Origin: Halomonas sp. LR3S48
GTDB taxonomy: Bacteria; Pseudomonadota; Gammaproteobacteria; Pseudomonadales; Halomonadaceae
Assembly (NCBI RefSeq): GCF_025725665.1
Contig: NZ_CP107009.1
Coordinates: 2,046,001-2,110,000 of the forward strand
DNA: 64,000 nucleotides
Reading direction: 5' to 3'
In this document: piece by piece, positions 22,417 through 32,332 of the stretch
Layout: every line of letters begins with the position of its first letter
How positions within the stretch are numbered: the first letter of the stretch is position 1
Notes under the pieces: generated by a model
Database searches by the model: none
The model's input: the letters and a program-made list of their open reading frames with translations, nothing else
What the model was told of the DNA's origin: nothing
Position numbers and translations under genes: made by a program

Positions 22417-22998
22417 ATGGCAACCACCAGGCGTGAGCGCACATTCTCGCATATCGTCGGCTTCGACGATTGTCCGTTCCCGCGCGGGCACCGCGGCGAC
22501 GTGGCCATCGTCGGCGCGGTGTTCTCCGGGCTGCGCCTGGAAGGCGTGCTCTCCGGCAAGGTACGCCGGGATGGCGTCAACAGCACCCGCGAGTTGATTC
22601 GCCTCGCCGGCGGCACGCGTTTTGCCGCGCATTTGCAGCTTGTCATGCTGCAGGGCGTGGCACTTGCCGGTTTCAATGTGGTCGACGCAGTGCGCCTGCA
22701 CACCGAGCTGGGCCTGCCGGTGTTGGTGGTGGCTCGCCGGGCGCCACGCAAAGACGCGATGCGTCGGGCACTGCTCGAACGGATTCCCGGCGGTGCGCGC
22801 AAGTGGGCGCTGGTCGAGCGGCTGGGCGAGATGGAGCCGCTCGCCGGCGTCTATGTGCAGCGCGTGGGTCTCAGCCGCGTGGAGGCTGAACACGTGCTTC
22901 GCGCCACCACGCCCCACGGCAGCGTGCCCGAGCCGTTGCGCGTGGCGCACCTGATCGCCGGCGGCGTGACCACGGGGGAGAGCAGCGGACGGGTCTGA
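22417..22998 (+). CDS. DUF99 family protein (endonuclease dU / endonuclease V-like fold)
   Basis: A 193-residue protein. Near the N-terminus 'IVGFDDCPFPR' supplies the conserved Asp pair of DUF99, followed by 'VAIVGAVFSGLRLEGVLSGKVRRDGVNSTREL' and later 'LPVLVVARRAP'. The family is common in archaea and scattered in bacteria; archaeal members have been related to endonuclease V and reported to act on deoxyuridine-containing DNA. It is divergent from recQ with only 60 bases between start codons, and ends about 110 bases before the Wadjet genes. A DNA-repair or defence-linked role is plausible but not shown. Confidence 0.8.
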   Translation: MATTRRERTFSHIVGFDDCPFPRGHRGDVAIVGAVFSGLRLEGVLSGKVRRDGVNSTRELIRLAGGTRFAAHLQLVMLQGVALAGFNVVDAVRLHTELGLPVLVVARRAPRKDAMRRALLERIPGGARKWALVERLGEMEPLAGVYVQRVGLSRVEAEHVLRATTPHGSVPEPLRVAHLIAGGVTTGESSGRV

Positions 22999-23043
22999 TT
23001 CGTCTCATTCATCGCTGCGTGTAAAACACAATGCTCTAGTGCC

Positions 23044-23072
23044 ATGACCCGAGAGGCCGAGCTTGGCATAAT
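23044..23072 (+). promoter_or_regulatory. Possible promoter of jetABCD
   Basis: A CATAAT -10-like hexamer (23067-23072) has only a weak -35 (ATGACC at 23044-23049) 17 bases upstream. It fits the chosen jetA start at 23107. Confidence 0.3.
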
Positions 23073-23106
23073 GCCCCCTCTTTTCTTCGCCCGCAGGGAA
23101 GACCTC

Positions 23107-24519
23107 ATGACCGCCTGGAGCAAGCTGCTGATCGCCACGACGCGGCTGATCGACCTGCACGATAGCGCCCATGAACCCGGCTCGCCCTTCGTGCAGGTCA
23201 GCCAGGAGCAGCGTCGCGGCCTGCGTGATGGCTACTGGCTTGACCTCGGCTGCCTGCTGCTCGACTACCTGCTCGACGAGGACTTCGCCACCAACAGCGC
23301 CTTCGTCTCGCAGACCCGCTGCCTCAACCATCTGCGCGAGATTTATCCGCAGTTGCCGCATGACGACCTGAGCTTCGTCGTCAACCTGCTGGCCACGCCT
23401 AGCGAGATTCACTTTCGGCAGTCGTCCCCGGCCGCGCGCCAGGCGACCCCGAGCGCGAATGCGAGCGTGATGGGGGAGAGTCGCGCCCGGCGCAGCACCA
23501 AGCGTACGGCGCTGGTCGAGAAGCAGGGCCAGACCGGCCAGGTGCGGCTCACGCCGAGCGGCCGCCAGGCGGTGACGTTGGCCAGCCAGGTCGAGGACCT
23601 GCTCTATTCCGAGTACGACGCCGCCAAGGTGCTGGCCGCGCTGGCGCGGGGCGATTTCGCCCGCATTCCCGACATCACCAACCAGATCCTGCTGGCGATC
23701 CGCGCCCTGACCCAGGAGCTGCGCCGGGTGCGCGAGAACCCCACCCGCGAGGGCAAGCTGGCCGCGCTGCTCGACAACGAGCGGCACTATCACAACGCGC
23801 TGACCAATATTCAGCAGACGCTGCTCGATGCCCGCGCCCAGCTCGCCACCCCGCGGCTGATGGAGCGTTTCGAGAACTGGCGCGAAGCGCAGGAGGAAGA
23901 ATGGGACCTGCGCGTGCTCTCCAGCGCCCTCGGCCGGGTACTCAACGCCATCGAGAACCTTTCGCGGCGGCTCTCGGAGCTGCTTGCCGACATCGCCGAG
24001 GGGCGCATCCAGGCCATGGGCGTGGTCGATTTCCAGGACATGGCACGCCAACTGCTCGAAGCGCCGCCCGCGGCTGCGCTTCGCGATGCCGTGGTGGCGC
24101 GCATGATGCCACTGCACGTACAGGCCACTTTTCCGCGCCTGGCACCCCTGGTGCCGCTGCTTGAGAGCCGCCGCGCCGAAGCCAGCGCCTCGGCGCTGGT
24201 GTTCGACGAAGCCGGAGACGCCGCCCCCGAGGATCCGCTGCTGGCGCGTTTCCTAGAGGCGCGCGGCCCGGCGCTGCGGAAGCGCATCCAGCAGGCGCCA
24301 CTGTCGTTGCCCGAGGCATTGGCCGAGGGCTGGCACCGCTTCGAGGAGGGCGATTGCCTGGCCCAGTTGCTCAACACCTTCGTCGACACCGAGCTGCTCG
24401 ACCCTGGATTGACGGTGGGTATCGAGGCCACGCCGTTCGAGCTCCGGCTCGACGATGGCCGTCGCATCGAAGGGGTCGTGACCCCGTCCCTCGGCTTTTT
24501 TAAGGAAGAACTTGTATGA
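23107..24519 (+). CDS. jetA: Wadjet anti-plasmid system subunit JetA (kleisin, MukF-like)
   Basis: JetA is the kleisin that bridges the two JetC heads and recruits JetB in the condensin-like Wadjet complex. The ATG at 23107 after AGGGAA gives 470 residues; an upstream ATG at 23044 is possible but overlaps the likely promoter. The protein has an N-terminal winged-helix-like region (about 1-100), a low-complexity linker rich in Ala, Ser, Arg and Thr (about 105-145), a helical middle with coiled-coil character ('RRLSELLADIAEGRIQAMGVVDFQDM') and a compact C-terminal domain. Assignment rests mainly on gene order and size rather than on a strong motif. It overlaps jetB by ATGA. Confidence 0.82.
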   Translation: MTAWSKLLIATTRLIDLHDSAHEPGSPFVQVSQEQRRGLRDGYWLDLGCLLLDYLLDEDFATNSAFVSQTRCLNHLREIYPQLPHDDLSFVVNLLATPSEIHFRQSSPAARQATPSANASVMGESRARRSTKRTALVEKQGQTGQVRLTPSGRQAVTLASQVEDLLYSEYDAAKVLAALARGDFARIPDITNQILLAIRALTQELRRVRENPTREGKLAALLDNERHYHNALTNIQQTLLDARAQLATPRLMERFENWREAQEEEWDLRVLSSALGRVLNAIENLSRRLSELLADIAEGRIQAMGVVDFQDMARQLLEAPPAAALRDAVVARMMPLHVQATFPRLAPLVPLLESRRAEASASALVFDEAGDAAPEDPLLARFLEARGPALRKRIQQAPLSLPEALAEGWHRFEEGDCLAQLLNTFVDTELLDPGLTVGIEATPFELRLDDGRRIEGVVTPSLGFFKEELV

Positions 24520-25352
24520 ACATGACCGAGATGGGCGAGGTGGTCGCCTACCTGCTGCGCTACCGCAGCGCCGAACGCACCCCGGGCGGCGGGCGCAAGC
24601 GCCGTGCCGCCCGCGAAGGCCAGCTCTCCGAGCGTGACGTCTGCGCCTTGATCGACGACGCCAGCGAGGCCGAGCGCGAGGCGCTGCGCGACTTCCTGGG
24701 CGGACAAGGGCTGAGGCTCAAGGCCTTCGAGGCCGGTGACTATCCGGGTATCGCGCCCGGTTCGCGCTACTACGCGCTGCTGCCCGACCCGGAACTGGAA
24801 CAGCCGCCGCTCTACACCCGCGAGCCGGTATTCGAGGCGCTCAAGCTGCGCCAGGAGAGCCGCGCCGAACTGGCCCAGTGGTACCTGCAGCTGTGGCTGT
24901 TGATGCACACGCTGCTCTACACCCGTTACAACCGCGCGCTCTCAGACGTCAGCCGCTACCAGGAGGCCACCTTCGCCGGGGCCGAGCTGGTCGAGCTGAT
25001 GCGTGACCAGCTCGAGTCATTGCGCGCCCTGGGCGAGGAGGCGCCGGAGGCAAGCCGGGCACTGCTCGAAGAGCGCGGCGAGGACATCAGCCGCCGGGTG
25101 CGCGCCTTCATCGACCTGCAGGTGCGTGCCGGCCTGCTCGAAGGTTTGCGCGAGGCCGATTCCGCAACGGCCAGCGAAGAGGGCGGCGGCGAGGTCTGGC
25201 AGCAGACCCTGCTCGGGGCGCTGGAGAGTGAGCAGATCGGCATCCACCAGCTCGCCCACCTGCATGCGCTGGCCCAGGGCCGCGTGGCGAGCCGGCATGC
25301 CGAAGAGAAAGATGAAGCGCCCATCGACGAGCGCGAGGAGACCCAGGCATGA
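24516..25352 (+). CDS. jetB: Wadjet anti-plasmid system subunit JetB (MukE-like)
   Basis: A 278-residue, mostly helical protein placed between jetA and jetC with 4-base overlaps on both sides. JetB is the MukE/KITE-type winged-helix subunit that binds the kleisin and DNA. Features include an Arg/Lys-rich stretch (about residues 18-35), a winged-helix-like 'LSERDVCALIDDASEAEREALRDFLGGQGLRLKAF' region and a charged C-terminal tail. A conserved 'YTREPVFEALKLRQESRAELAQWYLQLWLL' segment (about 97-127) matches the pattern of MukE-like proteins linked to SMC operons. Start at 24516 or two codons later. Confidence 0.82.
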   Translation: MNMTEMGEVVAYLLRYRSAERTPGGGRKRRAAREGQLSERDVCALIDDASEAEREALRDFLGGQGLRLKAFEAGDYPGIAPGSRYYALLPDPELEQPPLYTREPVFEALKLRQESRAELAQWYLQLWLLMHTLLYTRYNRALSDVSRYQEATFAGAELVELMRDQLESLRALGEEAPEASRALLEERGEDISRRVRAFIDLQVRAGLLEGLREADSATASEEGGGEVWQQTLLGALESEQIGIHQLAHLHALAQGRVASRHAEEKDEAPIDEREETQA

Positions 25353-28300
25353 GCGTGATCCACCGTATCGAGGTTGCCAACCTGCTCAACAAGCACGGTG
25401 ACGTCGCCTCGCCCTGGGACGCCAAGATGCGCCACGTACTGCTCGACCTGCGTGGCCAGTCCAGCGCCATCAGCATGGAAAACGGCTTCGGCAAGACCAC
25501 GCTGGCCGAGGCGTTGATCGGCCTGCTGTCGCGCGACCGCACGCTGCTCTCGCGCACCCGGCGCAAGTGTTCGCCCTCGTCGGTGGGTGGCGAAGGCCGC
25601 AGTTGGAGTCACCTGCGGGTGGAGTTCCGTTCGCGCAGCGGGCTCGAGCGCCAGGACGACATGCTGGCGGTGGCCGGAGAGGAAGTGGCCGGCGAGACCT
25701 TCGTGTTCGGCTTCTACGGCTACAGCGACGGCAGCGGGCTCTCCTTCTATCACTACGCCGGGCGTCTCGAGGACGTGCCGGTGCATCACCTCACCCTCGA
25801 CGGCAAGCTGGCGCTCTACGCCAACCGCGACGTCAAGGCCGTGATGGCCGAGCGCGGGGTGCGCCTGACCCACAACCGCGAGGAGTGGCTCGAGGCGGTG
25901 GGCGCCCACGTGTCGCGCCGCGAGCTGGCCCAGCTCGCCGCCTTCCAGAAGGAGGGCGGCGCCGACAAGAGCCAGATCTTCAACGCCATCAAGCCCCGCG
26001 CCGGCGAGAAGGCCGACCAGGCCTTCTTCTTCGAGGTGCTGGCCCCCGAGATCCTCTCCGGCGCCACCCGTGGCGAGACCGACGAGAGCGAGGAACTGAT
26101 CGAGGAGGTGATCCTCAACTCCGGCACCAACATCACCGAGCTGCGCCATCGCCTGGAGGAGGCCGAGAGCGACCAGCGCCGCGCCAGTGACAAGGTGGTG
26201 CGGCTGGCCGAGCTGCGCGAGCAGGGCGAGACCCTGCGCGATGCGCGTTCTCGCCTGGAGGAACTCGACCAGGGGCTGGCGGCCAGCGAAGCACTGCTGG
26301 GTGGCCAGGCGCTGCTGGGCCTGCCCGGGCTGCCCCGCGCCGCTTCTGAGGATGACGCCGAAGAGCGCGGGGCCGCTCCGTTGGATGGCTTTGCCTGGAT
26401 CGCCGGCGATACGTCGCGCCCCCGGGTCTCCACCTCATTACTGGCTACCCTCTCCGGCCTTTCCGAGCGGGCGGTGCGCCAGGCGCTCTCCGAGCGCGGC
26501 GCCCGGGTCGACGTGCATCGGCGCCTGATCCACCTGCCCGAAGCAGCATGGCCGCTCAACCGCGATGTGGGTCACGTCAGCTTCAAGGCCGCCCGCGAGT
26601 GGCTAGCCGAAAGCCACGCCCTGGCCGACGATGCGGCCCGCGACCGGGCACTTTCCGCCCTGGACGAGGGTGCCGACGCCTTCGAGGCGGCCGACGGCAA
26701 CCGCTTCCGCGAGGAGGTGATCGGCGACGGCGTCTATCTCGAGGAACTGACCCGCGACCTGACGGCCCTCGACGAGCGCCGCGACGATATGGAGCAGGAG
26801 CGCGAGCGGCTCGAATCCCAGCAGCGCGACTTCGTCGACAACCAGAGTTTCTACACCCAGGCCCTCTCCGAGGGGCTGTTCAGTGAAGCCGAGCTGGAAA
26901 CCCCGGAGGCCAGCGCCGAGGCGGCCAAGGCCGAGGCCGCCGACGCTCGCCGCGCCCTCAACGCGCACCTGGGCCGCGTCGGCGAGCTCAAGCAGGTCGC
27001 CGCCTGGCACGATGCTTTCCGCCGTGAGTGCCCCGGCACGGCACCGGCCGAGCGGCTGGAGGAGAAACTCGATCGTGAGGCCGAGCTGGCCGAGGCGCTC
27101 GATGAGCTGACGCTTCGTCGCGACGAGGTGGCCACCGCCTTCGAGACCGCGCGCGCAGAGCGTGAGCGACTCAACGGCGAGCGCGAACGTCTGACCGGCG
27201 AACAGGGCCTGCTGGCCCGTGGCCAGGCGCCATGGCGCGCCTTCGTCGAGGGTTGGCCGGGCGAGGAAGTCGGCGGCTTCTGGTCGCGGCGCAAGACGGC
27301 GCTGGCCGAGCTGGAGACGAACTCGCGCGAGGCCGAACAGCGCCGCCAGGATGCCGAGCGCATCCTGGCACGGCTGGCACCGCTGGCCGAAGCGGCACGC
27401 CGCTATGGCGAGCTGCACGGCGACGACGAACCGGTGCATCTGCGCGCACGACTGCGCGAGCGCGAACGCGAACTGGCCGACGAGCGCCAGCGGCTGACGG
27501 AGGAAGAGAGCCGCCTGCGCACGCTGCACCGGGCGCGGCTCGACTTCGCCGAGCGCAGCGAGCTGGCGCCCGAGAAGTGGCTCACCGATGCCCGGCGTCG
27601 CTACCCGCGGCTGTTGCGGGAAGCGGAGACGCTGGAAGCCGATATCGCCGCCCGCGAACGCTACCTGGAGAGCCTCTCCGGCGACCCGCTGGAGCGGCGC
27701 GTGGTGGAGGCCGAGGCCCATCGCCACCTGGACGACAGCGGCATCGCCTGGCAGCCGCTGCATGCGGTACTCAACGTCGAGACGCATACCCCCGAGCAGC
27801 GCCGCGAATGGCTGGTGCAGGCCGCCGGTGTGCTGTTCGCGCCGGTGGTGGCCGGGCGCGAGGCGGCCGAGTCCGCCGCCGCCGCGCTGATAGAGGCAGG
27901 CCTGGCGGTACCGGTGTTCGAGGCTGAGGCGCTTGCCGGCTTGCTGGCCCGGGGCGAGCCGCCGCTGGGTGCCGTGGCCGGGGTGGAAACCCTGGCGGTC
28001 AAGGCCGCGCTGGACCCGAGCTATCTCGAGGCGCTGCGCGAGGCCACCGAGAAGCGGCTGGCCGCCGACCGCGAGCGGCAGAAGGCGCTGGCCATCGAGT
28101 GCGAACGGCTCGATCCCCATGGCGAGACATTCGCCTTGGCGCTGCGTGCCCGCGAAGCCGACGAGGCGGACGTCGAGGTGGCGCTGGAGGCAGTGGCTGA
28201 GCAACAGGCGGCGCTGGCCGAACGTGAGGCCGAGCTGGCCCCGCGGCTGAGCGACACCGCGCTGGCCTGCATCGACGACTATCAGCGCTACCTGCAGGAG

Positions 28301-30253
28301 GGCGGCGAGATCGCCCAGCAGGAAGCCGCCGAGGCGCGGCTCGAGGCCGAGACGGCACTGGCCGAGCTTACGCCCCAGCGCGAGCGGGCCGCCCGCGAGC
28401 TGGAGGCGCACGGGCCGACCTGGCTGGCCGCCGAGCAGTTCAGCGACGCCGGCGGCGTCGAGCGGCTCCAGGCGTTGGAGACGCGCCTTGCCGAACTCGA
28501 GCGTCACCTGGCCGAGGCCGCGGCCAGGCTGGCCAGCGCGGAGGAAGAGAAAGAGGCGCTTGCACGGAAAGTCGTCGAGACCGAGGCCCAACTGCGCGGC
28601 ATCTTCAGCGACGGTGAGCGTGATCGGCTGCGTGCCCTGGCGCGCTTCGAGGCCGATGGAGGCGTCGACTTCATGGCCAGCGCAGGTGAGGTGCAGGCCG
28701 AACTGGAAGCGTCGCAGTCGCGGGCGACCCGGCGCGCCGACTTCGATTTCACGCGTATTCGCGCCTATCTGGAAGTGCGCGACGCCGGCGGCGGCAGCCA
28801 GAAGCTCGAACGCGAGATCGCCCGGGTCAAGCGTGAACTGGGTGAACTGCGCGACAAGCGCAAGACGCTTTCGGCAGAGCGGGATGTGCTGGAGGCGCGC
28901 CTGGCCGAGCAGCGCCGCGCGCTGGCCTGCGTCGACCAACTGGCCGTGGAGTGGCTGCGGGTACTGCGCGAGCTGCCCGAGGGCTGGCCGCGACGCCTGG
29001 CTGCACTGGTCGATCTCGATGAGGCCAGCCGCTGGCCCGTCGACACGGCTGAGCTCGAGGTACGCAATGAAGCGCTCGACGCCTGGCATGCCATGGTCGG
29101 TGAGAGGAACGAGCAGAGTGAGCTCGACGTCGAAGCGCTGGAAACCTGTCAGCAGACCCTGGTCGATGCCTTGGGCGAGCTCAACCTGGGCGAGCGGGCG
29201 CGCAACCGCGAACGTCAGGCGCGCCAGGTCGAGGCCGGCGAGCGCAAGCTGGTCGAGGCACTCGCCGAGGCGGCGCACAGCCGGCTGTTCAGCGACACCG
29301 AGCGTGCCCGCCTGGCCGGGCTGACGCATGCCAGCGCCGAGGCCCTGGACGACCTCTCGCGGCTGCACGACCAGCTCGCCGGCCAGCTCGACGAGCATCG
29401 CGTGCGGGTCGAGCGGCTGCATGCCTCCCGCGAGCAGATCGAGGGCACCCTGGTGGAGCGGCTCAGCTCGATCATCTCGGACGCCGCCGGCAATCTCGAC
29501 ATCCTCAAGCGCGTGGCCAAGAGCAGCGGCGAAGGCGGCGCCTTCTTCGAGGTCAAGGCCTCGCTGATCGGCCCCGACCAGCTGCGCGACCTGATCGCCA
29601 CGCTGCTGGCCGACATCGACGAGCACCAGGCGGCCATGCGCCGCCGCGCCGAGCGTGACGGCGGCATGGTCGATGGCGAGGCACGCAGGCGCGACGACGA
29701 CCTGCTGCGCCAGATTCGCCGGCGCATCTATCGCGGCCTGTTCCACGATGTGGCGATCCGCCTCAAGCACGACGCCATTCGCCCGCATGGGCGGCTGTTC
29801 TCGCTCAACGAGGAGATGTCGGAAGGGCAGCGCGAGGCGGTGTCGCTGATGTGGCTGGTCAAGCTCTCGGAGTTCGCCATCGAACGTGAGCTGCGCGAAT
29901 TGCCGGGGCATCATCGTCGCCGTGCACGCACCAGCCGCGAGAGCGTGATCCTGCTCGACGGGCTGTTCTCCAAGCTCTCGCACCGCCGCCTGATCCAGGA
30001 TTCGCTGGAGTCGCTGCGCAACACCCGTGGGCGCTTCCAGATGATCGGCCTGATCCACAACCCCAACTACGAGAACGACCCCGATATCTTCCCCACCTAC
30101 CTGGTGGGCAGCGTGATCGGCGGCGCCCAGGGGCAGGGCGGCCACGTGATGGTGCGTGACGGCCGCGTCACGCCGCCGGAGTCGGTAGGGCGCAGCGTCG
30201 GCGAGGCCAGCCTGTTCGGCATTCATGTCAGCGAGCCGGCGACCCAGGAGTAA
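25349..30253 (+). CDS. jetC: Wadjet SMC ATPase JetC (MukB-like), unusually large
   Basis: The 1634-residue ATPase motor is predicted to extrude plasmid loops. The N-terminal head has Walker A 'ENGFGKTT' (about residues 44-51). The C-terminal head has a signature-like 'MSEGQREAVSLMWLVKLSE' (about 1490-1508) and Walker B 'SVILLDGLFSKLSHRR'. Between them are very long Glu/Ala/Arg/Leu-rich coiled coils interrupted by a globular hinge-like region around residues 790-900. A second globular insertion lies in the first coiled-coil arm (about 310-440), including a helix-turn-helix-like 'LLATLSGLSERAVRQALSERG'. Many JetC proteins are near 1100 residues, so this one is MukB-sized. It overlaps jetB by four bases. 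Confidence 0.92.
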   Translation: MSVIHRIEVANLLNKHGDVASPWDAKMRHVLLDLRGQSSAISMENGFGKTTLAEALIGLLSRDRTLLSRTRRKCSPSSVGGEGRSWSHLRVEFRSRSGLERQDDMLAVAGEEVAGETFVFGFYGYSDGSGLSFYHYAGRLEDVPVHHLTLDGKLALYANRDVKAVMAERGVRLTHNREEWLEAVGAHVSRRELAQLAAFQKEGGADKSQIFNAIKPRAGEKADQAFFFEVLAPEILSGATRGETDESEELIEEVILNSGTNITELRHRLEEAESDQRRASDKVVRLAELREQGETLRDARSRLEELDQGLAASEALLGGQALLGLPGLPRAASEDDAEERGAAPLDGFAWIAGDTSRPRVSTSLLATLSGLSERAVRQALSERGARVDVHRRLIHLPEAAWPLNRDVGHVSFKAAREWLAESHALADDAARDRALSALDEGADAFEAADGNRFREEVIGDGVYLEELTRDLTALDERRDDMEQERERLESQQRDFVDNQSFYTQALSEGLFSEAELETPEASAEAAKAEAADARRALNAHLGRVGELKQVAAWHDAFRRECPGTAPAERLEEKLDREAELAEALDELTLRRDEVATAFETARAERERLNGERERLTGEQGLLARGQAPWRAFVEGWPGEEVGGFWSRRKTALAELETNSREAEQRRQDAERILARLAPLAEAARRYGELHGDDEPVHLRARLRERERELADERQRLTEEESRLRTLHRARLDFAERSELAPEKWLTDARRRYPRLLREAETLEADIAARERYLESLSGDPLERRVVEAEAHRHLDDSGIAWQPLHAVLNVETHTPEQRREWLVQAAGVLFAPVVAGREAAESAAAALIEAGLAVPVFEAEALAGLLARGEPPLGAVAGVETLAVKAALDPSYLEALREATEKRLAADRERQKALAIECERLDPHGETFALALRAREADEADVEVALEAVAEQQAALAEREAELAPRLSDTALACIDDYQRYLQEGGEIAQQEAAEARLEAETALAELTPQRERAARELEAHGPTWLAAEQFSDAGGVERLQALETRLAELERHLAEAAARLASAEEEKEALARKVVETEAQLRGIFSDGERDRLRALARFEADGGVDFMASAGEVQAELEASQSRATRRADFDFTRIRAYLEVRDAGGGSQKLEREIARVKRELGELRDKRKTLSAERDVLEARLAEQRRALACVDQLAVEWLRVLRELPEGWPRRLAALVDLDEASRWPVDTAELEVRNEALDAWHAMVGERNEQSELDVEALETCQQTLVDALGELNLGERARNRERQARQVEAGERKLVEALAEAAHSRLFSDTERARLAGLTHASAEALDDLSRLHDQLAGQLDEHRVRVERLHASREQIEGTLVERLSSIISDAAGNLDILKRVAKSSGEGGAFFEVKASLIGPDQLRDLIATLLADIDEHQAAMRRRAERDGGMVDGEARRRDDDLLRQIRRRIYRGLFHDVAIRLKHDAIRPHGRLFSLNEEMSEGQREAVSLMWLVKLSEFAIERELRELPGHHRRRARTSRESVILLDGLFSKLSHRRLIQDSLESLRNTRGRFQMIGLIHNPNYENDPDIFPTYLVGSVIGGAQGQGGHVMVRDGRVTPPESVGRSVGEASLFGIHVSEPATQE

Positions 30254-30256
30254 GCG

Positions 30257-31363
30257 ATGCGCGATGCCACTCTGATGCTCAACGAGGCGGCCAGGAAAGT
30301 CCTGGCCCAGCTAGAGAGAGAGTGGCAGCGAGTCTATGCGAATGGTAGTAAGGGTAAAGGCTGGCAAGCCGAACCCCTTGTCAGATCCCTCAAGCGGAAG
30401 GGAATCTGCGAGACGGAGCATCAGGCTTGGGAGGTTCTTGAAAAACTGCTGGATGCAGGTGCTATCTCACTGAGACAGGGCGGAAGAATTTCCCCGCATC
30501 AACGATGGAACGCCACCATATCGCTCGCTGAGGCTCGTATAGAGCAGCTCAAGGCCAATCTGCCTGATGTCGATAATCGGCTTGGCTTGAGCGCTGCGCA
30601 GGAACAGGCCTGGAGGCGAGCATTAGAATCTCCGCTGCGTGAATGGAGCATCGAGGACCAACTGGCACTGGCCGAGGGCCTCAGGCGGTTGGCCAACGAT
30701 CTGCCGGGGGGCTACCAACTGAGCCCTTACGTGGCCAGTGCGCGCTATCTGCTGGGAAGCAGCAAGCTGCTTGAGGCGCTGCCCACCGAGCTGGTGCGCG
30801 CGTTCGATATCGAGCCGACCAGCTTCCAACCCGCCGAGACCTGGCTGCTGGCCAGCGTGCCCGAACAGCCCGAGGGGCTCTTGCTGATCGAGAACGCGCA
30901 GAGTTTCAGTCAGGCCTGCCGTGTGGGGTGTGGCAAGCGCCTGGCCTTGATCTGCACGTTCGGCTATGGCCTCTCGCTGGCCAACGCCTTGGAAAGTGGA
31001 GACCGGGTGCGCCTGGTCGGCCAGGGTGCAGCCGGCGTCACCCTGCCGGACCTACTGGCTCTACCCAGCTCCACCTACTGGGGTGATTTCGACCCCGAAG
31101 GGCTGCGCATCTACAAGAGGTTGAACCACTTCCTGCCCGCGCTAGCGCTTTCCGCCCTGTTCGGTCCCATGCTCGCTGCCTTCGAGTCAGGCACAGGTCA
31201 TCCTCTCGATGCACTAAGCGGCAAGGCAGGGCAGCGAGCTGCCGGCAATTGGCAGCGCGGGCTCGACCAGGAGTGGCTGCCCGATGACCAGGTTCAGAAG
31301 TTGGCAGGTAGAGCGCTCGATCCGTCTGTTCAGAGTGGGCTCATGGAGCGCATTTTACAGTGA
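30257..31363 (+). CDS. jetD: Wadjet nuclease subunit JetD (Toprim)
   Basis: JetD is the Toprim nuclease that cuts plasmid DNA once the JetABC motor has measured it. The 368-residue protein has an N-terminal helical/winged region (about 1-130) and a C-terminal Toprim-like domain. The catalytic Glu is in 'LLLIENAQSF' (about residue 211) and the metal-binding Asp pair is in 'TYWGDFDPEGLRIYKRL' (about 276 and 278), matching the E...DxD layout expected of JetD. It starts three bases after jetC. The first 350 bases use more AT-rich codons than jetABC or its own 3' half, hinting at a recombined or separately acquired 5' end. Confidence 0.9.
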   Translation: MRDATLMLNEAARKVLAQLEREWQRVYANGSKGKGWQAEPLVRSLKRKGICETEHQAWEVLEKLLDAGAISLRQGGRISPHQRWNATISLAEARIEQLKANLPDVDNRLGLSAAQEQAWRRALESPLREWSIEDQLALAEGLRRLANDLPGGYQLSPYVASARYLLGSSKLLEALPTELVRAFDIEPTSFQPAETWLLASVPEQPEGLLLIENAQSFSQACRVGCGKRLALICTFGYGLSLANALESGDRVRLVGQGAAGVTLPDLLALPSSTYWGDFDPEGLRIYKRLNHFLPALALSALFGPMLAAFESGTGHPLDALSGKAGQRAAGNWQRGLDQEWLPDDQVQKLAGRALDPSVQSGLMERILQ

Positions 31364-31431
31364 ACGGATGGCGTTCCTTGTGCCGTCTGGCAACATGGTG
31401 AGCCGGGTTCTGCTTAATATAGGGAAATATA

Positions 31432-31986
31432 ATGCTGCGCACCTTGCTGTATGTCGGCGGCCTACTCGCCGTCTTATTCTTTGGCTTCAGCCTGTATGGC
31501 AAGGCAGCGCCGAGGTTTTTCCCGCCAACCGTGCCTGAGATGGCACCACCCAGCCAGCGTGCGGACGCTGTCCAGGTCATCAAGTCTGAGCGTGTCATGC
31601 GGTTGCTGCGAGAAGGCGAGGTCATAGCGGAATACCGCATTGCGCTTGGCGGTAGCCCGGAAGGACACAAGCAGCAAGAGGGCGATCAACGCACGCCAGA
31701 AGGCGAATACATCATCGACTGGCGCAACCCACGCTCGATTGGACACCTCTCACTGCATGTCTCCTATCCCAATGAAGATGACCGAGCGGTAGCGCGTGAG
31801 CTTGGTGTCGATCCCGGAGGCACCATCATGATCCACGGCATACTGAACGGCTGGGGCTGGCTTGGAAGACTGCATCGATATTGGGATTGGACGGATGGCT
31901 GCATAGCCGTTACCAATCAGGAAATGCGTGAAATTTGGTCTCTCGTCCCCAATGGTACTCCGATAACCATCAAGTGGAGCGCATAA
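31432..31986 (+). CDS. L,D-transpeptidase (YkuD domain) protein
   Basis: A 184-residue envelope protein with an N-terminal signal anchor (about residues 3-21). The YkuD catalytic signature is present as 'IMIHG' (His135) and 'WTDGCIAV' (Asp155, Cys157), the Cys being the nucleophile that cross-links or modifies peptidoglycan. It is smaller than E. coli Ldt enzymes and lacks a LysM domain, like many gammaproteobacterial YkuD/YafK-type proteins. It begins 68 bases after jetD and its base composition is more AT-rich than the chromosome around it, so it may have arrived with the 3' side of the defence island. Confidence 0.88.
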   Translation: MLRTLLYVGGLLAVLFFGFSLYGKAAPRFFPPTVPEMAPPSQRADAVQVIKSERVMRLLREGEVIAEYRIALGGSPEGHKQQEGDQRTPEGEYIIDWRNPRSIGHLSLHVSYPNEDDRAVARELGVDPGGTIMIHGILNGWGWLGRLHRYWDWTDGCIAVTNQEMREIWSLVPNGTPITIKWSA

Positions 31987-32026
31987 GGAAATTGGTTAAT
32001 TCACCATCAGAAGGAGGCTAACCACC

Positions 32027-32332
32027 ATGCACGTCATCATCGATCTCTGCGTCGTCCCGCTGGGTGTTGGGGTATCGGTCTCGCCGCAGATTGCCGCCTG
32101 CCAGCGGGTGATCGAGGCCTCGGGCCTCGAGCACCACATGCACGCCTACGGCACCAACATCGAGGGGCCGTGGGACGAGGTGATGGCGGTGGTCAAACGC
32201 TGTCACGAAGTGGTGCACGAGATGGGCGCACCGCGCATCACTACCACCATCAAGTTGGGTACACGCACCGACCGCGAGCAGTCCATGGCCGACAAGGTGT
32301 CGAGCGTCGAGAACAAACTGCGCAACTCTTGA
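32027..32332 (+). CDS. MTH1187/YkoF-type thiamine-binding family protein (UPF0045)
   Basis: A 101-residue ferredoxin-like fold protein. The N-terminal 'VIIDLCVVPLGVGVSVSPQIAACQRVIEASGLEHHMHAYGTNIEGPWDEVM' is the typical pattern of the MTH1187 family, followed by 'PRITTTIKLGTRTD' near residues 68-81. Members bind thiamine or related pyrimidines, and the cellular role is unsettled. A perfect AAGGAGG site lies seven bases ahead of the ATG, suggesting good expression. The gene converges with argP, with 21 bases between stops. Confidence 0.88.
   Translation: MHVIIDLCVVPLGVGVSVSPQIAACQRVIEASGLEHHMHAYGTNIEGPWDEVMAVVKRCHEVVHEMGAPRITTTIKLGTRTDREQSMADKVSSVENKLRNS

Follow-up and report, generated by a model that had tools for sequence, protein, structure and literature searches.

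In Wadjet systems of type I (JetABCD, also named MksBEFG or EptABCD), JetABC gives JetD its shape sensing, and Pseudomonas aeruginosa MksBEF, which is without JetD, contributes to chromosome organisation, both according to one review (PMC10586767). Here we characterized a jetABCD operon on a 64,000-nucleotide stretch of DNA from Halomonas sp. LR3S48 (contig NZ_CP107009.1, positions 2,046,001 to 2,110,000; the window), whose genome is one contig of 4,689,245 bases. A sequence-only reading had described the operon as a complete Wadjet system like those known to cleave small circular plasmids. JetD profiles and residues, motifs and folds support a complete gene set of the Wadjet type, in which the nuclease is probably active, and the superfamily assigned by that reading is right; the likeness to known plasmid-cleaving systems, however, is an extrapolation, because JetA, JetB and JetC are outside all Jet models tested. 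Our preferred reading, with a probability of roughly 0.6, is a divergent Wadjet branch outside the type I-III models, which is armed with its nuclease here and restricts small plasmids, and whose JetABC core has a task of its own. The operon would encode a four-subunit complex of the Wadjet/MukBEF superfamily of structural maintenance of chromosomes (SMC) proteins, in which JetABC, by analogy with the superfamily, would most probably load on DNA as an ATP-dependent clamp or loop extruder, and JetD would dock on JetABC and cut once a small circle has been reeled in; with the JetD residues intact, the window host would restrict small plasmids. The system departs from the textbook Wadjet, and it is of interest for a nuclease that can be absent and for an atypical ATPase site.

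No Jet, Muk or Mks model in PADLOC, Pfam or NCBIfam matched JetA, JetB or JetC up to E 0.1, and the Wadjet profile search proposed as a check was positive, weakly, for JetD alone, which matched PADLOC JetD1 (54.7 bits), more weakly JetD3 and JetD2 (17.3 and 16.2 bits), and Pfam JetD_C (26.1 bits, cut-off 22). Two control JetC taken from other genomes, of type I and type II respectively, scored 1651 and 1469.6 bits and cross-matched other types, and against these strong scores the missing JetA-C matches led us to reject an ordinary type I-III assignment. TIGR02680 (type II JetC) found nothing in the window genome at E 0.001. Below the cut-offs, JetC matched TrlF (26.3 bits, cut-off 350), the SMC-related ASRP (17.9 bits, cut-off 300) and PADLOC LmuB (14.4 bits), which we read as coiled coil, since the scores are far under the cut-offs and the matches lie within the long middle part (residues 434-1502); JetA matched LmuB at 9.9 bits (E 0.09). 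In profile-profile comparisons with type alignments of 4 and 2 rows (the type I rows being stop-to-stop open frames that carry additional N-terminal residues), JetC aligned with type I in its Walker A part only (probability 82 percent), and nothing was found for JetA (0.2 percent), JetB (0.6 percent) or JetC against type II (0.7 percent). PDB sequence searches with JetA, JetB and JetC gave no useful match. The claim that order and sizes fit known Wadjet systems holds for the gene set and fails for JetC, which at 1634 amino acids exceeds the typed JetC models (JetC1 1093-1215, JetC2 1355-1404 apart from one 390-position fragment model, and the single JetC3 1472 positions). Relatives of JetA and JetC were named hypothetical protein, AAA family ATPase, chromosome segregation ATPase, DUF3375, DUF1631 or TIGR02677, and none JetA or JetC as far as the shortened names show. 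In the open-access literature, which leaves most subscription papers outside, we found no description of this branch, including under Halomonas, JetD loss and type IV or novel Wadjet, and nothing on origins; the accessible parts of PMC12647877 and PMC12153180 do not concern this JetABC family.

The Toprim E...DxD residues reported for JetD are indeed present as E212, D277 and D279 and are invariant in 27 aligned JetD, as is D337-Q-E. The Toprim region aligned to MksG at E 0.00095 and to JetD(E248A), PDB 8q72, at E 0.19, and we consider the window JetD to be probably an active nuclease on the strength of these residues.

Predicted folds supported JetB fairly and JetA weakly. Fold matches were named by entry title, and the identity of JetA, JetB, MukE and MukF chains was judged from length and range, except for 1t98 (MukF by title). 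For JetB (predicted local distance difference test, pLDDT, 78.5; predicted template modelling score, pTM, 0.75), the best matches came from the Wadjet JetABC structures of P. aeruginosa PA14 and E. coli, as chains of 189 and 195 residues and therefore JetB judged by size, a chain of the Nse1-Nse3-Nse4 complex came third by Z (8.7), and MukEF/MukBEF chains were also among the matches. Foldseek gave no JetB match at E 0.001 among 203, the top one being a chain of the MAGE-G1/NSE-1 complex (E 0.03), so that both searches touched the kleisin-interacting tandem winged-helix element (KITE) subunits of Smc5/6 (Nse1/Nse3-MAGE). Smc5/6 is eukaryotic and is not known to have a Toprim subunit. The JetA model was of low confidence (pLDDT 64, pTM 0.37), and its fold evidence, from VIA-align 2 alone, placed chains of MukF or of MukEF/MukBEF complexes in rows 1-7 and a Wadjet-II JetABC chain at rank 10; JetA is probably a MukF/JetA-like kleisin. 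In the broad sense, the operon thus holds the Wadjet set of kleisin (by the low-confidence model), KITE subunit, SMC ATPase and Toprim protein. JetABC occurred in the same order at 69 further loci with full-length JetC, and therefore these open reading frames (ORFs) are no chance set.

At E 0.001, JetC matched in 79 of the 250 genomes of the window's GTDB family, leaving 171 without a match. Two weak matches (G714 and G883) were excluded, and the 77 nearly full-length ones were kept, including one in pieces (G832) and one with an internal stop (G849). This family is wider than the Halomonadaceae of NCBI, since in three of its genomes JetC has the same scores as in the Oceanospirillum loci. Of the 77 genomes, 23 have an intact JetD beside JetC, one has a frameshifted JetD (G024), one a remnant (G826), and 52 have no JetD at the locus, which leaves 54 without an intact JetD beside JetC. 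A named collection, overlapping with these genomes, comprised 72 loci found by two peptide patterns, 70 of which hold jetC (L091 and L100 do not); jetD was intact in 22 of the 70, and L093, with only 205 bases behind jetC, was counted as without it. In L058, L042 and L032 jetD was frameshifted or truncated to a remnant, and jetC was in pieces in G031 and in G832 (locus L082). Among 58 relatives, JetC was present in 13 and a JetD match in seven (broken in G024, a fragment with a stop in G031), and a JetD_C search found nothing in the JetC genomes G005, G009, G010, G012, G025, G029 and G031. A second JetD elsewhere in JetD-free genomes was rejected, since none occurred in the 58-genome set and the 77-genome set gave only one weak unlinked match (G746, among the 52 without jetD at the locus); the armed genome G855 had a second weak JetD match. 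In 398 genomes of the phylum, the JetC profile recovered full-length copies from three genomes only, each belonging to the window's family, plus a weak fragment. The phage collection contained no JetC, and a JetC fragment was present in the plasmid collection in two records that are nearly identical. On one such plasmid (NZ_MT732184.1, L121:10337-13104), JetD and a C-terminal JetC fragment (DGLFSNLSH) lie near a Tn3-family element with mercury genes, so that the branch is also present on mobile DNA. In G829, two full-length JetC matches of equal score lay on different contigs, a duplicate or an assembly effect.

JetABC appears to be inherited chiefly vertically, on the chromosome. The JetABC tree (69 rows, quick method, L082 and L084 left out) grouped largely by genus, the closest named relatives being Billgrantia bachuensis and B. 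pellis (Halomonadaceae). Within the fetched flanks of the 70 loci, where the eight window neighbours were looked for, 58 loci shared neighbours, which were housekeeping-like, with RecQ upstream of jetA in 35 and a thiamine-binding gene downstream in 38; none of the eight was found in 12 (L043, L069, L081, L084, L087, L088 and L093-L098, including all six outgroup loci). A defence island was rejected, since the eight neighbours carried housekeeping-type Pfam domains or none. Recurrent downstream neighbours were likewise housekeeping-like (thiamine-binding and LysR by Pfam of the window copies), and others we take, by eye, to be a cyclopropane-fatty-acid synthase and a truncated haemoglobin. Clustering of the downstream ORFs in the fetched flanks of jetD-free loci gave no shared effector, and a replacement effector behind jetC was rejected.

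On this tree, jetD presence required 16 changes, or at least 13 across starred branches, where shuffled labels needed 19.5, and jetD is therefore only slightly clustered; gain and loss are indistinguishable in such counts. Of 20 splits, 11 were common to the JetD tree (23 armed rows) and the JetABC tree; the distances of JetD and JetABC correlated at r 0.86, a value reached in 0 of 2000 permutations, also within Halomonadaceae. Against the JetABC tree, JetD of L041 joined the window and Billgrantia at 100/99, and jetD was present in two of the six outgroup rows, both Endozoicomonas, and absent from 15 of 16 Salinicola rows. From these counts, the congruence and the exceptions, we read jetD as ancestral and lost repeatedly, with some recombination or regain; in this reading it behaves as a removable module. 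In armed/disarmed pairs, the match ended 10-25 bases before the jetC stop in six of eight. Past the stop of jetD, it resumed after 6, 9 and 80 bases in L090/L052, L046/L050 and L071/L074; it resumed only after further inserted genes in the window pairs and L031/L034, and L042/L043 and L045/L051 showed a differing pattern, L042 retaining its jetD remnant. Within Billgrantia, the JetC C-terminus varied with the jetD state, with ATQE in the window and three armed loci, while ten disarmed loci comprised four ending in EPS/EPT, three with the armed-type TQE (L030, L032 and L042) and three otherwise; these ends and the junction breaks point to a possible joint exchange of jetD with the 3' end of jetC. 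In five jetD-free Billgrantia loci (L029, L031, L033, L037 and L086), the thiamine-binding gene stood 30-43 bases behind jetC. Salinicola salarius DSM 18044 has jetD and 1A01339 does not (L071/L074), with flanks about 99 percent identical on both sides, and therefore the role of JetABC without the nuclease is directly testable in these sister strains; in the strain without jetD, the slot is occupied by a different ORF, about 138 codons long.

To follow selection, we calculated ratios of nonsynonymous to synonymous change (dN/dS) by the Nei-Gojobori method with our own script in 22 pairs hand-picked from near tree neighbours. Eight jetD-free pairs gave 0.058-0.085 for JetC, 0.054-0.163 for JetA and 0.030-0.237 for JetB; six armed pairs gave 0.051-0.163 for JetC and 0.205-0.311 for JetD, the value of 0.311 (L050-L053) resting on near-zero synonymous change; and eight mixed pairs gave 0.064-0.158 for JetC, the window against L086 being 0.064. 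Because purifying selection acts in lineages without jetD, the JetABC core appears to be kept for some task that does without the nuclease, although for some pairs jetD loss could postdate the split. This task is probably chromosome handling alongside the host Smc.

The strongest competing explanation is that JetABC is primarily a second chromosomal condensin like MksBEF, with JetD as an accessory cutter, for instance of circular or tangled chromosome products, and plasmid restriction incidental or absent. Such a role would agree with the mostly vertical inheritance beside housekeeping-like genes, the 54 of 77 genomes without an intact JetD beside JetC, the selection on JetABC where JetD is missing and the chromosome role given above for the JetD-free MksBEF of P. 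aeruginosa. However, JetC is dispensable, as it is unmatched in 171 of the 250 family genomes, Smc was present in all 58 relatives (above the cut-off in 54), and JetD is faster-evolving and patchy, as expected of an immune effector. A MukBEF- or MksBEF-like operon without a Toprim JetD, which would have contradicted the sequence-only reading, nearly fits most JetC-bearing relatives but not the window genome, which has jetD, keeps its Smc and matches no Muk or Mks model. We regard the condensin explanation as less likely than the divergent, armed Wadjet branch.

Walker A and signature motifs are present in JetC as had been described, while the Walker B motif assigned to it lacks the catalytic glutamate, the sequence being VILLDGLFS with glycine at G1538. 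Glycine followed the aspartate in all 70 full-length JetC. It did so, too, in 88 of 88 database homologues, a set that shares members with the 70 and extends to two distant proteins at 33 and 37 percent identity; Walker A was MENGFG[KR]T in 84 of the 88. In contrast, all five type I and both type II JetC compared, seven in total, had DE and, aligned by eye, no H-loop histidine, whereas LIHNP was found in 70 of 70 of the window family; the host's own Smc has DE plus histidine. The JetC3 model gave only weak partial matches in 274 genomes of the class, and the Walker B comparison covers types I and II. The branch differs from Wadjet type I in the Walker B, H-loop histidine, size and profile of JetC, and in a jetD that is often missing beside jetC. 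An H-loop histidine is able to carry hydrolysis, as in the ABC transporter HlyB. The JetC ATPase would have to run without the usual Walker B glutamate, and the invariant H1570 is the likeliest stand-in. An SMC family without this glutamate in all members seen is relevant to ATP hydrolysis by such motors, both to its occurrence and to its mechanism. One could propose that JetC hydrolyses ATP poorly or not at all and forms a DNA clamp locked by ATP, which would recognise small circles from their topology and not by loop extrusion; the invariant glycine would fit, and in PMC10123090 the Walker B mutant E1042Q (glutamate to glutamine) of Corynebacterium glutamicum MksB is hydrolysis-deficient. 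Retention of the Walker A lysine, the signature and the H-loop histidine at the frequencies in Table 1 makes this improbable.

More tentatively, and with odds somewhat below even, the divergent Wadjet could be a fourth branch with a swapped catalytic site, the H-loop histidine replacing the Walker B glutamate, that is turning into a nuclease-free condensin, in which the nuclease is lost and sometimes regained at the jetC 3' end as a cassette while the core is under its own selection. If true, the transition from which MksBEF and MukBEF have been proposed to originate would be seen repeatedly within one bacterial family, and the optional nuclease may show an immune system becoming a chromosome-handling system.

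Table 1. Positions of jetABCD features in the window.
Feature	Position	Strand	Description
jetA	23107..24519	+	470 aa, probable kleisin (MukF/JetA-like)
jetB	24516..25352	+	278 aa, KITE subunit
jetC	25349..30253	+	1634 aa, SMC ATPase
jetD	30257..31363	+	368 aa, Toprim nuclease (probably active)
Sigma-70-like promoter site	23044..23072	+	ATGACC-17-CATAAT, TG preceding second hexamer; consensus match only
JetC Walker A NGFGKTT, residues 45-51	25481..25501	+	GFGKT in 69/70 full-length JetC, GFGRT in 1
JetC signature MSEGQR, residues 1490-1495	29816..29833	+	70/70 full-length JetC; 86/88 database homologues
JetC Walker B VILLDG, residues 1533-1538	29945..29962	+	glycine replaces catalytic glutamate
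JetC H-loop position H1570 (GLIHNP)	30056..30058	+	histidine in 70/70
JetD catalytic E212 (IEN)	30890..30892	+	invariant; VEN in MksG (alignment weak here, 1.9 bits)
JetD D277-x-D279 (WGDFDPEG)	31085..31093	+	invariant; aligned counterparts WGDLD in MksG and WGDMD in JetD(E248A), PDB 8q72

An ordinary mobile Wadjet of type I, II or III is very improbable, since the JetD1 match is set against JetA-C that meet no typed model where control JetC score highly, a different Walker B and neighbours that are non-defence genes. Least probable is a decaying remnant without function in the window genome, for the broken jetD and jetC copies belong to relatives (L058, L042, L032, G849, G031, G832/L082), whereas the four window genes are open and JetC is under the purifying selection given above.

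Among these relatives, L058 (Halomonas beimenensis, one genome) combines arginine for the Walker A lysine with a frameshifted jetD, and therefore its system may be decaying. A 188-base tandem repeat, made of the jetB tail and the first approximately 56 jetC codons, lies between jetB and jetC in L058 (L058:12237-12793, three copies, 97 percent matches), L057 (L057:12233-12583, 1.9 copies), L056 and L089; the upstream copies in L058 are short ORFs ending at the next ATG, with Walker A interrupted after GFG.

The four plus-strand ORFs were all open in the window, and the close coupling described before was reproduced, with 4-base overlaps between jetA and jetB (24516-24519) and between jetB and jetC (25349-25352) and a gap of three bases before jetD (30254-30256). 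The longest JetA frame opens upstream at 23044; the start at 23107 chosen by the sequence-only reading is supported, since aligned relatives begin at or near MTAWSKLL and the promoter-like site occupies 23044-23072. Promoter-like sites in 22900-32100 numbered one, against 0.4 expected by shuffling.

Other genes occupied the slot behind jetC or jetD. In the window, jetD is separated from the thiamine-binding gene by an L,D-transpeptidase gene (YkuD, 31432-31986), and a copy 92 percent identical stands 139 bases behind jetC in the jetD-free L030, which suggests that this gene travels in the same slot. In L032, L034 and L035, the slot held RES/Xre toxin-antitoxin-like ORFs or the RES part alone, as recognised by eye.

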